A DNA stretch of 64,000 nucleotides from Thermoanaerobaculia bacterium. GTDB lineage: Bacteria > Acidobacteriota > Thermoanaerobaculia > Multivoradales > JAIOJS01. The stretch spans positions 124,001-188,000 of the forward strand of contig JAUIDB010000005.1 in assembly GCA_030429235.1 (NCBI GenBank), given 5' to 3'. The translations under genes and the position numbers were made by a program. Each line of letters starts with the position of its first letter. Position 1 is the stretch's first letter. Below are positions 1-21,568 of this stretch, one piece after another. Below the pieces are notes generated by a model that was not told the DNA's origin, did no database searches, and saw only the letters and a program-made list of their open reading frames with translations.

Positions 1-1549
<1,549 letters not shown>

Positions 1550-12500: not shown

Positions 12501-13445
12501 GGCCGGATTCAGCGTGGCCGAACGGAAGCCTCGTGGGTCGTAGTCTTCCGCCCGCTCCAGACCCTACGGACCCGGCTGGTCCTCGGGGCCGGCGTCGGCT
12601 GGTTGCCCACCGTGAGGGAGGCCGCCGCCTGCGCTCCGCGACGCTCCGTGGCCTTCACTCCCGCCGAGTCTGCTTGCCGCCGCTCGCGGAGAGCCCCCGT
12701 GGACCAGCCGGCTCCTCCGGGTCTTCCGCTACTGTCTTCACTGGTTGGGAAGAACGGTCGACGTGATTGGGGGTGTTGCAACCCGTGGGTGCTGTCTCCT
12801 CGCCTTGACAGGAGCACTCCCGATCTCGAAGAGACCTCCATCGTTTGGAACGCCAGCTGCCCAGCTGGCAGCGTGGGCGGCGCAAACCTTGCCGAAAGCC
12901 CCGAGTAGATACCGCCCTTGTTGCTCTCTCGATCTCGAACTCGGCCGGATTCAGCGTGGCCGACCGGAATCCTTATGAGGTCGTAGTCTCTCTGCCCGCT
13001 CCAGACCCTACGGACCCGGCTGGTCCTCGGGGCCGGCGTCGGCTGGTTGCCCACCGTGAGGGAGGCCGCCGCCTGCGCTCCGCGACGCTCCGTGGCCTTC
13101 GCTCCCGCCGAGTCTGCTTGCCGCCGCTCGCGGAGAGCCCCCGTGGACCAGCCGGCTCCTCCGGGTCTTCCGCTACTGTCTTCACTGGTTGGGAAGAACG
13201 GTCGACGTGATTGGGGGTGTTGCAACCCGTGGGTGCTGTCTCCTCGCCTTGCAGGAGCACTCCCGATCTCGAAGAGACCTCCATCGTTTGGAACGCCAGC
13301 TGCCCAGCTGGCAGGGTGGGCGGCGCAAACCTTGCCAGAAGCCCCGAGTAGATAACGCCCTTGTTGCTCTTTCGATCTCGAATTCGGTCGGTTTCAGCGT
13401 GGCTGAACGAAGTCCTGGTGAGTTTGTGGTCTCTCCGTCCGCTTT
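12501..13445. repeat. Tandem intergenic repeat, two full ~442-bp copies plus a partial third
   Basis: A unit beginning GGCCGGATTCAGCGTGGCC at 12501 recurs at 12943 (GGCCGGATTC) and, as GGTCGGTTTCAGCGTGGCT, at 13386 where only about 60 bp remain. Copies 1 and 2 are nearly identical over more than 400 bp and differ by substitutions and 1-2 nt indels. The period is 442-443 nt, not a multiple of three, and no frame runs consistently through all copies, so the apparent ORFs are not taken as genes. Each copy contains the small dyad CCAGCTG-cc-CAGCTGG. A diverged copy of the same element is at about 52735-52925. The stretch 12491-13539 holds nothing else except the terminator at its right end. Confidence 0.85.
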
Positions 13446-13489
13446 GGCTCCGAGCACCCGCTGGATCCGCTGACGCTGGAACGGGCTAA

Positions 13490-13516
13490 AGAAAGAGGGG
13501 AGGCCGAAGCCTCCCC
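13490..13516 (-). terminator. Rho-independent terminator of the first Oar-like gene
   Basis: GGGGAGGC (13497-13504) and GCCTCCCC (13509-13516) form a perfect 8-bp stem with a 4-nt loop. Read on the minus strand it is followed by TCTTTCTTTAG, a T-rich tail. It lies 24 nt downstream of the minus-strand stop codon. Confidence 0.85.
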
Positions 13517-13539: not shown

Positions 13540-16500
13540 CTAGAAGGAGAAGCGCACTCCGACCCGCACGAACCGTGGGGCCTGCCAGGTCTGGGCGGTG
13601 TTCCACCCAGGGTTGGTGGGAGGCGTCGCGGGGTCGCCGGGGACGATCGTGGTCGTTGCCCCGGTCACCCAGTCGATCGGCTGGTACACATCGGCGTCGG
13701 CCGTGGTGTAGTCCGTATCGCGCGTCAGCTCGCCCTGCCGGTCGAGCAGGTTGAAGACGTCGAACAGCAGGTTGATCTGCTTGTCGCCGCCGAGCTCGAT
13801 CGGGTAGCCGAGGTGGAGGTTCGCCTCGTAGACGTCGTCGGTGCGGCCGAAGGCACCGCGCCTCGACAGGTAATACTCGTTGCTGGCGTACGCCGCCGAG
13901 TAACCCATCGCCGTCATCGGAACTCCGGACATCCAGTGGGCGGAGACGCCGGTGGTGAGACCGAAGTCCCACTGGTAACTGCCGTCGAACTTCGCTTGCC
14001 AGGTGCGATCGCCCCACAACAGACCCTGGTTGTTGACCGAGAAGTCGTAGTAGTCGAACGCCGAGTTGAGGTTCGGGTCGAGCTGACCCGTCGAGGCCTG
14101 GAAGGTCCCGTCGTAGCTACCGCTGGTCTCCGACCACAGGAGCGAAGTCAGGAACTGGTAGTTGTTGGACAGGCTCTTGCGCAGGGTCACTTCGACGCCC
14201 TCGAACTCGCGGGTCGGGATGTCGAGCGAATGCAGCGTGTAGTTGTAGCCGTAGGCGTATCCGATGTCGTAGGTGCCCTGCATCAGGCCCTTGCCAGGGT
14301 TGCCGATGAAGTAGTTGCCGTCGGCAGCCAGGGCGTCTTCGATCACGTTGTTGAGTTCACGACGGATCAGCTTGAGGCCGACGGCCATGTTGTCGGCGAC
14401 CTCCATCTCACCGCCGAGGATGACCTCTTCGATGTACTGACCCTCCACCGCAGGATCGACCAGCGACACGCCACCGCCGAGGGTGCTCGAGTTGCGGTTG
14501 ACCGCACGGTCTCCCGCTACGTTGGCCAACTCCTGGGAGAAGTTGTACGCGAAGACCGAGATCTCACCGCCGAAGGAGCGGATCACGATGTCCATCGGAA
14601 TCGTCTCGTAGAAGTAACCCCAGTGGGCGAAGACCTTCGATTGGCCGTCGTTCCGGGGATCCCACACGAGTCCAACCCGAGGGGCTAGGTTGTCGTCGAT
14701 ATCGGCACTGACGTTGCCGAAAGCATCGTAGAGCCGCTGGATCTCCATGCGGGCCCCGAGGTTGACCGTGAAGTTCGAAGCGGGCCGCCAGGTGTCCTGC
14801 AGGAAGTAGGCGTAGTTGTCGGCCTTGGTGTCGACGGCCAGCGGATTGACCATGTCGCCGGTGGTGGCGGCGTAGGGGTCGATCTGACTCGAGACGTAGT
14901 AGCGGTGCCGGTAGTAGTAGTCCTGCTCCGGGTTGTCGGGACAGCGGAACGCGCTGCAGTTGAACCGGTAGATTCGTTGACCACCACTATTGCTGTTGGC
15001 GTTCACCACGCCGATCTCTTCGTACTCGTAGCCGCCTTTGAACTCGTGCTGGCCGAGGATGTCTTCGACGAACAGCGTGAGGTCGGCCCGGTACTGGTCC
15101 CGGGTGAACTCCTGGTCGGCGTAGTTTCCGATGCCCGAGGGGTTCGGAGCTCCTGCCCAGCCCCAGGTCGTGGTGCCGTCGCCGAGAGGGTCGGTCTCGT
15201 CGATGAATCCGACCAGGTCGCGACCGGCTCCACCCACCGTCGCCTCTTCGGAGTGTTGTGCCACACGCACGTTGCCGATGAGGTTGTTGGTGAAGATGCC
15301 GTCGTAGTTGACGACGTAGTCAGTGGCCCCGGTCTCCAGGGTCTGGTCGTAGTGGGTCGACGGACCGGCGAGGGATACCGGGTTGCCCAGGGTGTCGGTG
15401 AGGACACCCTCCTGCATCGACGGATCGCCGAAGAAGGAGGCAGCTACGGTGTGCGACGGGTGCGCCAGCCAGGTCAGCTTGCCGGCGTACAGGTCTCGCT
15501 CCAGGGTCCGAGTGAAGGGATCGTTGAGCGCCGGGGCGCCCGGCACGAACTGCGAGAAGTCCTCGACCGAGGCCAGGTTGGTTTCGTTGTCGACCCGATC
15601 GTAGGCCCCGAAGAACCAGAGCTTGTCCTTGATGAAGAAGCCGCCCAGGTCAAAGCCGTAGTCCGCGTTGGTCTGGCCGGTGGTTTTGACCGAACCGGTC
15701 GCTGCTCCGGCGTCGGGCTCGGCCTTGAGGTTGTTCTGCAGGTCGTCACTGTCGTAGTAGGCGAAGACGTCACCGTGGAATTCGTTACCGCCGGACTTCG
15801 TGATGACGTTCAGGATGCCGCCCGTCGAGCGACCGTATTCGGCGTTGTAGCCGGCGGTCTTGACCTGGACTTCCTTGATGAACTCGAAGTTCAGGACCTT
15901 GCCCTGCTGTCCGAACTCGACACCGGTGGTGTTGACCCCGTCGACGTAGTACGCGTTCTCCGATCCGGTCGAGCCGTAGAAGGTCTGGCCCGCGAGATCG
16001 GCTTGGGCGCCGGGAGTGACGCTGGCCACGGCGGTGTAGTTGCGGCCGGTGGGCAGCGATTGGAAGAACTCACTGTCGAGAGCAACGCCCAGTTCGGTCG
16101 AGTTGGTATTGACGGTCGGGCGCTCGGCGGTGACGATGATCGCGTCGGCGAACTGGCTTGCCAACGAAACGTCGATCTCGGAGACGCTCGAGATATTGAC
16201 CGGTACGCTCTCACGTACCACGGTCTGGAACGTGTCGAGCGAGTACTCGATTCGGTAGATACCGACCGGAACCACGGGAAAGCGGTAGGCTCCGTCGGCA
16301 TCGGTGATCGCGACCTTGCTGCCCTGAAGGTCGGGCGAGCTGATCGAAACCGTGACGCCGGGGAGAGCGGCTCCCGCGTCGTCGGTCACCTGCCCCTTGA
16401 TCGAACCGCGGGTGGTCTGGCCAAACGTGGCAGGAACCAGCAGCAGGGCCGAGAGGGCCAGGGTGGAGAGGATTGCGCCAAAGCGCGTCGGACTTCGCAT
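13540..16500 (-). CDS. Oar-like TonB-dependent outer-membrane protein, paralogue 1
   Basis: A 986-residue outer-membrane protein. The signal peptide ends near AFGQ (…LVPATFGQ). A carboxypeptidase-regulatory-like domain (TRGSIKGQVTDDAGAALPGV, residues ~20-105) precedes a plug-like region (NAYYVDGVNTTGVEFGQQG; VQVKTAGYNAEYGRSTGG; ITKSGGNEFHG), then a long beta-barrel ending in FVRVGVRFSF with a terminal aromatic residue, typical for OMP assembly. Such proteins import or sense large molecules in Acidobacteria and Myxococcota; the substrate is unknown. ATG 16500 is preferred because AAGGAG lies 9 nt upstream and the alternative ATG at 16518 overlaps that ribosome-binding site. It is very similar to the gene at 18596-21568. 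Confidence 0.93.
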   Translation of the reverse strand: MRSPTRFGAILSTLALSALLLVPATFGQTTRGSIKGQVTDDAGAALPGVTVSISSPDLQGSKVAITDADGAYRFPVVPVGIYRIEYSLDTFQTVVRESVPVNISSVSEIDVSLASQFADAIIVTAERPTVNTNSTELGVALDSEFFQSLPTGRNYTAVASVTPGAQADLAGQTFYGSTGSENAYYVDGVNTTGVEFGQQGKVLNFEFIKEVQVKTAGYNAEYGRSTGGILNVITKSGGNEFHGDVFAYYDSDDLQNNLKAEPDAGAATGSVKTTGQTNADYGFDLGGFFIKDKLWFFGAYDRVDNETNLASVEDFSQFVPGAPALNDPFTRTLERDLYAGKLTWLAHPSHTVAASFFGDPSMQEGVLTDTLGNPVSLAGPSTHYDQTLETGATDYVVNYDGIFTNNLIGNVRVAQHSEEATVGGAGRDLVGFIDETDPLGDGTTTWGWAGAPNPSGIGNYADQEFTRDQYRADLTLFVEDILGQHEFKGGYEYEEIGVVNANSNSGGQRIYRFNCSAFRCPDNPEQDYYYRHRYYVSSQIDPYAATTGDMVNPLAVDTKADNYAYFLQDTWRPASNFTVNLGARMEIQRLYDAFGNVSADIDDNLAPRVGLVWDPRNDGQSKVFAHWGYFYETIPMDIVIRSFGGEISVFAYNFSQELANVAGDRAVNRNSSTLGGGVSLVDPAVEGQYIEEVILGGEMEVADNMAVGLKLIRRELNNVIEDALAADGNYFIGNPGKGLMQGTYDIGYAYGYNYTLHSLDIPTREFEGVEVTLRKSLSNNYQFLTSLLWSETSGSYDGTFQASTGQLDPNLNSAFDYYDFSVNNQGLLWGDRTWQAKFDGSYQWDFGLTTGVSAHWMSGVPMTAMGYSAAYASNEYYLSRRGAFGRTDDVYEANLHLGYPIELGGDKQINLLFDVFNLLDRQGELTRDTDYTTADADVYQPIDWVTGATTTIVPGDPATPPTNPGWNTAQTWQAPRFVRVGVRFSF

Positions 16501-16823
16501 GGTGGAAGACTCCTTCATCGTCGTTTCTTACGTTGGCGTCTCGACAGTCGAGACGCCGGCACTGCCTTGCCGGGCAAGAGACAGTTGAGCAGGAGTCGTG
16601 CCACGGCGGAGTGGGCTGGGGTCTAGGTGTCTCTATCTCATGGAAAATAAGAGCGTTATAGGCATCTGGCGGAGACTCCGCGGCGTCGTGGAGTCCACCG
16701 GGATTCGACTTCTTGGTCACCGATCCAAGAAACCTCGGCCCACGTTCTTGAAGAAGAACTGCCGGGTCGTCGCGGTCTCCGTCGCGTTTGTGACCCTTTC
16801 GGCGATGGCGTAGGATCGGCCGC
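16501..16823. other. Divergent intergenic region between the Oar-like gene and the Prx-like gene
   Basis: 323 nt with no convincing ORF. It holds the ribosome-binding site of the minus-strand Oar gene and should carry both promoters. The only A+T-rich patch is near 16636-16660 (AAAATAAG…GTTATAGG), which on the minus strand offers TATAAC as a possible -10 box without a clear -35. Two dyads lie towards the plus-strand gene, listed separately. Confidence 0.6.
16710..16759. promoter_or_regulatory. Two dyads upstream of the selenoprotein-like gene
   Basis: TTCTTGG (16710-16716) and CCAAGAA (16725-16731) form a 7-bp inverted repeat with an 8-nt centre. GTTCTT (16744-16749) and AAGAAC (16754-16759) form a second with a 4-nt centre. 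They lie 65-114 nt before the ATG at 16824 and may be operator sites. No regulator can be assigned. Confidence 0.35.
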
Positions 16824-17351
16824 ATGGAGACCGTTGCCGCCCGTCTCGCGCCCATCATCTTGCCCGAGGTTCAGGGGGACTACATCCGATTGGGCGAGCT
16901 GTGGCACGAACGCCCGGTCGCGATGATCTTCTTGCGGCACTACGGCTGAATCTTCTGCCGCGAGCACGTCGCGCAGTTGCGCGACCACCAAGAGGAGTTC
17001 GAGACCCGCGGAGCGACGGTGGCCGCCATCGGTCTGGGAAACCGTCTGTACGCCAGTTCCTTCCGCGAGGATACGGAAATCAACTTTCCCCTCTTTGTGG
17101 ACGAGGATCGACTGGCCTACCAGGCCTTCGACCTAGGGTCGGCGAACCTGGCGCACCTGCTCCGCCGGGACAACGCCCGGGCGCGGCGGCGGGCCCGCGA
17201 GGCCGGCTTTCGGCAGCACAAACTGGGAGAGAACGTGTTCCAACTGGGGGGCGCCTTGGTGGTGGCTCCGGGGGACCAGGATCTGTTCGTGCATCGCAGC
17301 GAGACCTTCGGAGACAATGCGCCGATCTCCGACCTGCTCGCCGTTCTCTAG
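16824..17351 (+). CDS. Prx-like thioredoxin-fold protein, probable selenoprotein (SelU/PRXL2-type, Sec at codon 42)
   Basis: Read from ATG 16824 the frame encodes an AhpC/TSA-type Prx-like protein, interrupted only by TGA at 16947-16949, and continues to the stop at 17351 (175 residues counting the TGA as selenocysteine). The TGA sits where this family has the redox-active residue: PVAMIFLRHYG-U-IFCREHVAQLRDH, giving U42-x-x-C45. The region after it is typical family sequence (GATVAAIGLGN; FPLFVDEDRLAYQAFDLG; VFQLGGALVVAPG). A stop at exactly the catalytic position with intact sequence on both sides is the hallmark of selenocysteine. Prx-like 2/SelU proteins with Cys or Sec there are known; role is presumed thiol/peroxide reduction. 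Automatic gene finding would give only a fragment starting near 16977. Selenocysteine machinery (selA-D) is not in this window. A nonsense-mutated gene is the alternative. Confidence 0.82.
16950..16976 (+). promoter_or_regulatory. Candidate bacterial SECIS hairpin just after the TGA
   Basis: Positions 16955-16958 and 16960-16962 pair with 16970-16976 to give a 7-bp stem with one bulged C (16959) and a 7-nt loop (16963-16969) containing G-U at 16968-16969. The bulge, short distance to the UGA and GU in the loop resemble bacterial SECIS elements. The fold was made by eye and the loop differs from the E. coli fdhF element. Confidence 0.45.
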
Positions 17352-18595: not shown

Positions 18596-21568
18596 CTAGA
18601 AGGAGAAGCGGACTCCGAGCCTCACGTACCGCGGCTGCTGCCAGGTGGTGGCAGTGTTGAAGGCCGGGTTGGTGGGGGGACTGTTGGGGTCACCGGGCCG
18701 GATCGTCGAGATCTGACCGGTGTTCCAGTCGAGCGGCTGATAGTCCTCGTTACCCGTGGTGTAGCGAGTACTGCGGGTCACTTCGCCCTGACGGTTGAGC
18801 AGGTTGAAGACGTCGAACAGGATCTTCAGCTCACGGTCGCCCCCGAAGGAGATCGGATAGTCGAGGTGAAGGTCCGCCTCGTACTGATCGTCGACCCGGC
18901 CAAACGCGCCGCGCTCCGACAGGTAGTACTCCCAGCTTGCGTACCCCGACGAGTAACCCATCGCCGTCATCGGCGTGCCGGTCCGCCAGTAGGCGGAGAG
19001 CCCGGCGGTGAGGCCGAAGTCGAACTGATAGGAACCGTCGAACTTGAACTGCCAGGTCCGGTCACCCGAGAGTAGCCCGGTGTTGTTGACCGAGAAGTCG
19101 TAGTAGTCGAAGGCCGAGTTCAGGTTCGGGTCGAGCTGGCCCGTCGAAGCCTGGAACAAGCCGTCGTAGCTACCGGTCAATTCGGACCAGAGGGCCGAAG
19201 CCAAGAACTGGAAGTTGTTCGACAGGCTCTTTCGTACCGACAGCTCAACGCCTTCGTACTCGCGTACTGGCTCCTCGAGCTGGTGCAGAGTCGTGTTGTA
19301 ACCGAAGGCATAGCCCATGTCGTAGGTGCCTTCCATCAGACCCTGGCCTGGGTTGCCGATGAAGTAGGACCCGTCGGCCGAAAGGGCGTCTTCGATGACG
19401 TTGTCGAGGTCACGGCTGATGTACTTGAGACCAACCGCGAGGTTGTCCATTACCTCCATCTCGGCCCCGACCACCAGTTCTTCGATGTACTGTCCCTTGG
19501 TGTTGGGATCGACTCTCGAGATGCCGTTGCCGCGTACGGTGCTCAACTGCTGCACACAGCCCGGTCGAGCGTCGGTACAGATTCCCGCCACGTCACCCGG
19601 CTGATCCGAGTAGTTGTAGCCGAAGATGTCGATCTCTCCGCCAAAGGAGCGGATTACGATGTCCATCGGGATGGTCTCGTAGAAGTGACCCCAACTGGCG
19701 AAGACTTTCGAACGACCGTCGTTCTTGGGGTCCCACACCAGACCGATGCGCGGAGCTCCGCTGTCGTCGATGTCCGCACTGACTTCGCCAAGGGCGTTGT
19801 ACAGCCTCTGGATCTCCATTCGATACCCGAGGTTGACCGTGAAGTTCGAGGCCGGCCGCCAGGTGTCCTGCAGGAAGTAGGCGTAGTTGTCGGCCTTGGT
19901 ATCGACGCTCAGCGGGTGGTTGATGTCGGCTACCGTCGCCGAGAACGGGTCGACCCGCTCCGAGACGTAGTACCGGTGACGGTAGTAGTAGTCGTGGATC
20001 CGCTGTCCATCGGCATCGAAGCAGCGAGAGAGGCTGGTGCAGTTGAAGCGGTAGATCCGCTCGCCGCCGCTGTTGTAGTTGGAGTTGACGACGCCGATCT
20101 CCTCGTACTCGTAGCCACCCTTGAACTCGTGCTGACCGGCGAGGTCCTCGACGAAGAGCGTCAGGTCTCCCCGCAGCTGGTCGCGAGTGAACTCCTGGTC
20201 CTGGAAGAAGCCGATTCCCGAAGAACCGGGAGCTCCGTCCCAGCCCCAGGTGATCGTGCCGTCACCGAGCGGGTTGCTGCTGTCGATGTAGCCCACCAGG
20301 TCGCGCCCGGCTCCTCCGGTGATCGCTTCCTCCTGGTGCTGCGCCACGCGGAAGTTGGCGATCAGGCTCGAGGTGAAGATCCCGTCGTAGTTGAGCACGG
20401 CGTCCAGAGCGCCGGTGTCCAGCGTCTGGTCGTAGTGAGTGGACGGGCCGGCCAGACTGACGCCGGGCAGGACGCCCGACTGCGTCGACGGATCGCCGAA
20501 GGCCGAAACCGAGACCGTGTGGCTGGGGTGGGCCAGCCAGGTCAGCTTTCCGGCGTACAGGTCTCGCGTGAGTTCACGCGAGAAGCTGTCTCCGAGGGAG
20601 GGAGCACCGGGAACTCCCAGGGCTCCGAAGTTCTCCAGCGACTCGAGGTCGGTGTCGTTGTCGACCCGGTCATAGGCGGCGAAGAACCAGAGACGGTCCT
20701 TCACGAAGTAGCCACCGAGATCGAGGCCGTAGTCGGACCGTACGAACCCGGTCTGTTTGCTGGCTCCCGAGACCGCGCCGTCAGCAGCCTCGCCCTTGAG
20801 ACTGTTCTGTAGGCCATCGCTATCGTAGTAGCCGAACACGTCGCCGTGGAACTCGTTACCACCGGACTTGGTGATCACGTTGAGAATGCCCCCCGTGGAG
20901 CGGCCGTACTCGGCGTTGTAGCCCGCCGTCTTCACCTGGACCTCCTTGATGAACTCGAAGTTCAGGGTCTTGCCCTGTTGGCCGAGTTCGACGCCGGTGG
21001 TGTTGACGCCGTCGATGTAGTAGGCGTTCTCGGCTCCCGTCGAACCGTAGAAGGTCTGACCAGCACCGTCGGACTGGGCACCCGGCGTCACGCTGGCGAC
21101 CGAGGTGTAGTTGCGTCCGGTGGGCAGAGCCTGGAAGAAGTCGGAGTCGAGGGCGACCCCGAGTTCGGTCGAGTTCGTATTGACGGTGGGACGGTCCGCC
21201 GTCACGATGATCGCCTCGGTGAACGAGCTCGTCATCTCGACGTTCACTTCCGTGGTCGCCGAGATGTTGACGGTCACGTTTTCCCGGACGATGGTCTGGA
21301 AGGTGTCGAGGGCGAACTCCATGCGGTAGACACCGACCGGCAGCAGTCGGAAGTGATAGTTACCGGCCCCGTCGGTGACGGAGACCTTGTTGCCCTGGAG
21401 GTCGGGTGAGGTAATGGTCACCGTGACGCCGGGGAGGCCCGCACCGTTGTCGTCCGCCGCGGTGCCGAGAATGGCGCCGCGGGTCGACTGGCCAGAGGCC
21501 GAGGAGGCGATCAGGACCAAGAGGCCCAGGATCGGGAACAGCACTCGAGAGCGCTTGAGAAATCTCAT
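18596..21568 (-). CDS. Oar-like TonB-dependent outer-membrane protein, paralogue 2
   Basis: A 990-residue outer-membrane protein with the same layout as the gene at 13540-16500: signal peptide (MRFLKRSRVLFPILGLLVLI…SASGQ), carboxypeptidase-regulatory-like domain (STRGAILGTAADDNGAGLPG), plug-like region, long barrel, and C-terminal YVRLGVRFSF. Long stretches around NFEFIKEVQVKTAGYNAEYG are identical between the paralogues, so they arose by duplication. An insert with CFDADG and CTDARPGC near the external loops differs between them, the kind of loop variation expected for different ligands. AGGAG precedes ATG 21568 by about 11 nt. It has its own T-tailed terminator. Confidence 0.93.
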   Translation of the reverse strand: MRFLKRSRVLFPILGLLVLIASSASGQSTRGAILGTAADDNGAGLPGVTVTITSPDLQGNKVSVTDGAGNYHFRLLPVGVYRMEFALDTFQTIVRENVTVNISATTEVNVEMTSSFTEAIIVTADRPTVNTNSTELGVALDSDFFQALPTGRNYTSVASVTPGAQSDGAGQTFYGSTGAENAYYIDGVNTTGVELGQQGKTLNFEFIKEVQVKTAGYNAEYGRSTGGILNVITKSGGNEFHGDVFGYYDSDGLQNSLKGEAADGAVSGASKQTGFVRSDYGLDLGGYFVKDRLWFFAAYDRVDNDTDLESLENFGALGVPGAPSLGDSFSRELTRDLYAGKLTWLAHPSHTVSVSAFGDPSTQSGVLPGVSLAGPSTHYDQTLDTGALDAVLNYDGIFTSSLIANFRVAQHQEEAITGGAGRDLVGYIDSSNPLGDGTITWGWDGAPGSSGIGFFQDQEFTRDQLRGDLTLFVEDLAGQHEFKGGYEYEEIGVVNSNYNSGGERIYRFNCTSLSRCFDADGQRIHDYYYRHRYYVSERVDPFSATVADINHPLSVDTKADNYAYFLQDTWRPASNFTVNLGYRMEIQRLYNALGEVSADIDDSGAPRIGLVWDPKNDGRSKVFASWGHFYETIPMDIVIRSFGGEIDIFGYNYSDQPGDVAGICTDARPGCVQQLSTVRGNGISRVDPNTKGQYIEELVVGAEMEVMDNLAVGLKYISRDLDNVIEDALSADGSYFIGNPGQGLMEGTYDMGYAFGYNTTLHQLEEPVREYEGVELSVRKSLSNNFQFLASALWSELTGSYDGLFQASTGQLDPNLNSAFDYYDFSVNNTGLLSGDRTWQFKFDGSYQFDFGLTAGLSAYWRTGTPMTAMGYSSGYASWEYYLSERGAFGRVDDQYEADLHLDYPISFGGDRELKILFDVFNLLNRQGEVTRSTRYTTGNEDYQPLDWNTGQISTIRPGDPNSPPTNPAFNTATTWQQPRYVRLGVRFSF

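Follow-up and report, generated by a model that had tools for sequence, protein, structure and literature searches.

A SelL-related redox gene from Thermoanaerobaculia with an in-frame TGA predicted to encode active-site selenocysteine

The locus described here raises the question of whether a TGA codon in the active site of a redox gene terminates the reading frame or is read as selenocysteine (Sec). It lies in a stretch of 64,000 nucleotides from a Thermoanaerobaculia bacterium, referred to here as the window (Table 1), and an earlier note, made from the letters of this DNA alone, had proposed a hidden selenoprotein. A single frame runs from an ATG at 16824 to a TAG at 17349-17351 with the TGA as its one internal stop; as that note had it, reading through joins 41 residues, Sec and 133 residues into a product of 175 amino acids, with FLRHYG before and IFCREH after residue 42. 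The G+C content by codon position (0.71/0.43/0.83) resembles that of coding DNA. Sixteen in-frame TGAs in the window are spaced as UxxC or CxxU and flanked by long open frames, and among these only the TGA at 16947-16949 stands in a recognisable redox motif. Judged from sequence evidence, this codon is almost certainly read as selenocysteine.

Table 1. Features in and around the selenoprotein gene (window coordinates).
Feature	Position	Strand	Basis
TonB-receptor-like outer-membrane protein (CarboxypepD_reg/OMP beta-barrel), divergent neighbour	13540..16518	-	71% identical to the 18596..21568 protein
TAGGAT, -10-like box ending 7 nt upstream of the ATG	16811..16816	+	weak, consensus match only
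SelL-related selenoprotein gene (Prx-like/AhpC-TSA_2 fold)	16824..17351	+	NF040769 134.7 bits, PF13911 55.2 bits
UGA codon as predicted Sec, U42 of U42-I-F-C45	16947..16949	+	same codon TGA in 14 other genomes of the order
Putative bSECIS hairpin: GUCGCGC 16968-16974, loop AGUU 16975-16978, GCGCGAC 16979-16985	16968..16985	+	pairing, synonymous constraint
TonB-receptor-like paralogue (CarboxypepD_reg/OMP beta-barrel)	18596..21568	-	71% identical to the 13540..16518 protein

The read-through protein scores above the curated cut-off of 120 bits for the NCBIfam model NF040769 (SelL_rel_redox), matching positions 10-172 of its 173 and hence nearly its full length, and above the cut-off of 27 bits for Pfam PF13911 (AhpC-TSA_2). 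An AlphaFold2 model built with 20 homologues (pLDDT 94.4) has a thioredoxin fold in which residue 42 directly precedes the helix 43-54. By both sequence and fold, the best match in the PDB is human prostamide/prostaglandin F synthase (PGFS; E 1e-11), whose C44 and C47 align with U42 and C45; the PF13911 match and the PGFS-like fold with its C/U-x-x-C motif place the protein in the AhpC-TSA_2/Prx-like 2 group that includes SelU and PGFS. It does not belong to SelL proper, which carries two Sec residues as UxxU, since U42-I-F-C45 contains one. Of the original description 'Prx-like/SelU-type', the first half stands, while 'SelU-type' is less exact than SelL-related, the SelU/PRXL2-type PGFS being the nearest solved fold.

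A list of open reading frames under translation table 11 gives, in this frame, only a 124-residue ORF from a TTG at 16977, which would make the gene a separate short C-terminal protein and the DNA upstream a leader or non-coding sequence. We regard this as extremely improbable. In all pairs compared, dN is smaller than dS on each side of the TGA, which marks the 41 residues before it as protein-coding, and these residues hold two strands (12-15 and 32-36) that are part of the thioredoxin fold in the model. The Cys homologues are moreover continuous across this point, and the short form would be missing the first strands as well as the catalytic residue. Upstream of the full-length frame, the eleven closest Sec copies (L021-L031) carry a TANNNT box 6-8 nt ahead of the ATG; this consensus-based pattern weakly suggests that transcription may start at or near the ATG and yield a leaderless mRNA, and a promoter scanner found nothing at its threshold.

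Could the TGA instead be a TGC cysteine codon that was mutated or misread, leaving a broken gene or a sequencing error? The two codons differ by one base and the source is a draft assembly of 92 contigs, yet the homologues make this account hardly credible. In a search of 59 genomes, 14 others belonging to the order have a strong orthologue (a match of at least 95 bits), and all 14 carry exactly one in-frame TGA, which aligns to codon 42 in a gene kept over its whole length. The TGA is shared by species as distant as 35% protein identity, and this multi-species conservation refutes a pseudogene or error; the purifying selection on each side of the codon and the conserved hairpin and full Sec machinery described below also speak against it. 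The 15 aligned Sec copies show neither TGA elsewhere nor any frame lesion. Where the codon differs it encodes cysteine, as the earlier note had anticipated for position 42: TGC is found in L036, a weaker homologue from within the order, and in metagenome-assembled genomes labelled Chloroflexi (L052) and Planctomycetia (L053), and Cys homologues of the phylum have TGC or TGT. Both Sec and Cys forms of the family are present among 199 genomes of the phylum, and some members are UxxU; relatives of this last kind (L055, L056 and L061) have two in-frame TGAs and are SelL-like. An in-frame UGA where homologues have Cys is a mark of bacterial selenoproteins, and the same codon recurring across genomes, together with the Sec and Cys forms of the family, shows that the gene is not broken and that its TGA is no sequencing error.

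The same genome holds the machinery for decoding UGA as Sec, all four components of which the note had asked to be sought: selA (439 bits), selB (339 bits) and selD (315 bits, on the contig that also holds the window) each score above the curated cut-off, and a tRNA-Sec (anticodon TCA) reaches 72.9 bits. These genes also bear on a genome-wide reassignment of TGA, for example to Trp or Gly. Such a reassignment, for which we found no support in this analysis, is so improbable as to be negligible: besides being contradicted by the presence of selA, selB, selD and tRNA-Sec, it does not fit the use of TGA as the terminal stop of orthologues in relatives (L024-L027, L030 and L033), and where homologues lack TGA at codon 42 the residue is Cys and neither Trp nor Gly. 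With the frame, the machinery, the Sec/Cys exchange at residue 42 and the hairpin considered next, the reading as a selenoprotein is supported as a whole.

A bacterial SECIS element (bSECIS) is modelled as a hairpin with a loop of 3-9 nt, lying 16-37 nt from the UGA, in which a G at the first or second position precedes a G or U (PMC13188914). Downstream of codon 42, a hairpin of 7 bp begins 18 nt after the UGA and places an invariant AGUU loop 25 nt after it, within this model. Among the 15 orthologues at the order level, 99% of the pair cells are standard pairs, with one C-A mismatch in L035. The codons in the stem-loop are nearly frozen (GCG for Ala50 in 14/14, CAG for Gln51 in 15/15 and TTG for Leu52 in 15/15, though these genes use CTC and CTG each about twice as often as TTG), and the mean excess codon identity is 0.41 in the stem-loop, compared with 0.06 elsewhere in the gene (Mann-Whitney p 4e-5, uncorrected for phylogeny). 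Covariation is weak within the 15 closest copies, with one compensatory change, so that more distant copies were needed. When five of these are added, 3 of the 7 pairs show changes in both partners, and the covariation score, uncorrected for phylogeny, is higher than in any of the 500 shuffles or of the slid versions; as the five were picked for their AGTT loop, the test leans towards structure. The UxxU relatives L055, L056 and L061 have the same loop with compensatory changes in the stem, and the motif is absent from the Cys copies inspected. One clear Sec copy (L077) fits the stem poorly, and in some distant Sec copies the hairpin is a different one. The fold energy of the 66-nt stretch around the TGA is nothing unusual (z -0.28) and Rfam found nothing in the window; the putative SECIS is identified by its pattern of conservation, not by folding energy.

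With the reading frame, the family, the Sec/Cys exchange, the machinery genes and the conserved hairpin established at the level of sequence, we propose with high confidence that the gene encodes a SelL-related thioredoxin-fold oxidoreductase in which UGA42 is decoded as Sec through SelB, tRNA-Sec and the in-frame hairpin, and in which Sec42 and Cys45 form the redox pair. We infer the insertion of Sec itself, the chemistry, the substrate and the reductant as follows. SelB and tRNA-Sec, directed by the hairpin, would decode codon 42; the selenolate of Sec42, positioned at the N-terminus of the helix, would attack a peroxide or disulfide substrate; Cys45 would act as the resolving thiol via a selenenylsulfide with Sec42; and a cellular thiol reductant would reduce the selenenylsulfide. 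The attacking and resolving roles are assigned in this way because this is the established chemistry of thioredoxin-fold CxxC/UxxC proteins. The protein has no evident signal peptide and is probably cytosolic, and its role is likely that of a selenol-based thiol oxidoreductase or peroxidase. It is possible, if less likely, that the selenoprotein acts mainly as an endoperoxide reductase like PGFS, or as a dedicated peroxidase, and not as a general disulfide oxidoreductase; human PGFS is, after all, the closest fold in the PDB, and the members of PF13911 are described as antioxidant enzymes. Identity to PGFS is only 22-25%, however, the folds of ResA and PrxQ likewise match the model well and, to our knowledge, prostamides are not expected from bacteria.

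Nor does the neighbourhood of the gene offer a consistent partner, whether substrate or reductant, when other orthologues are compared. The two envelope-protein paralogues that the earlier note saw on either side are indeed present, both as TonB-receptor-like proteins. A functional tie between them and the selenoprotein was considered and rejected: neither receptor gives a match to the family of FCYXU selenoprotein receptors, and the genes beside other orthologues are different ones, TonB-type receptors not being kept beside the gene in six other genomes and none being seen beyond the same genus (judged by eye). The receptors are probably incidental and functionally unlinked. Elsewhere in the window, the DNA between genes at 12509-13500 yields near-duplicate ORF translations on both strands, with one peptide present in two copies about 440 bases from each other; the pattern resembles an intergenic repeat, either tandem or dispersed.

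The genome may hold a second selenoprotein. L094 (G000:C86:222509-224832; match at about 1001-1324, plus strand) encodes a 176-residue AhpC/TSA (PF00578) protein with a W-U-P-H-C motif and a probable signal peptide; a hairpin, GCAGCU-AGUUG-AGCUGC, begins 14 nt after its TGA, with the loop 20 nt after. No NCBIfam model reaches its cut-off for this protein, which, on its sequence features, is a candidate second selenoprotein. Separately from this genome's candidate, another pair of redoxin-like ORFs, in L097 (8306-8953), has a break between about 8557 and 8606 and is possibly a further selenoprotein. A covariance model built from the hairpin of the present gene, and from that gene only, gave no further clear match in the genome, and the lower matches inspected (L085-L090) were chance-like. 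The loop of the second candidate starts in the same way as that of the UxxU relatives in the phylum; hence AGUU could help to find an uncatalogued selenoproteome. We offer only tentatively, as an idea that may well prove wrong, that the selenoproteins of this clade share a lineage-specific type of SECIS whose invariant AGUU loop is recognised by their SelB.

The family and the mechanism of this gene are already known, and it is a well-supported new member that leaves the current understanding of selenocysteine decoding unchanged. It contributes a Sec form that is widespread in the clade and a well-defined SECIS, and its genome supplies a second selenoprotein candidate; the homologue set documents Sec/Cys exchange inside one family, together with a clean bacterial SECIS bearing compensatory changes. 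As standard gene callers cut the gene at its active-site codon, a redox enzyme common in the order has likely been missed or misannotated.

Bacterial Prx-like selenoproteins with UxxC or UxxU, and SelL, are well established (PMC2398784, PMC9312934, PMC13188914), and selenoproteins have been reported earlier from Acidobacteria (PMC1794560, PMC12013277); in the literature searched, we found no mention of selenocysteine together with Thermoanaerobaculia. The main text of the 2026 review among PMC13188914 and PMC9312934 names neither NF040769 nor this clade, and the cd02970/PF13911 selenoprotein that appears in these reviews is UxxS. The closest known system is NF040769 itself, which our protein resembles in its near full-length match above the cut-off and in the U/C-x-x-C/U active site, and from which nothing categorical sets it apart; within the family, members of this clade have UxxC, whereas L055, L056 and L061 have UxxU. 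The PF00578 thiol:disulfide oxidoreductase selenoproteins with UxxC or UxxU (PMC13188914, PMC9312934) are alike in their Prx-like fold, in UxxC and in being predicted by homology. ResA and PrxQ/BCP have the same overall thioredoxin-like fold, but identity to them is roughly 15-20% and the protein scores far below the cut-offs of those families. Eukaryotic SelL (fish, UxxU), SelU/PRXL2 and PGFS have the Prx-like 2 thioredoxin fold in common with it; eukaryotic SelL, however, has two Sec residues (PMC3316567), and the SECIS of eukaryotes lies in the 3' UTR, whereas the one proposed here lies within the coding region.
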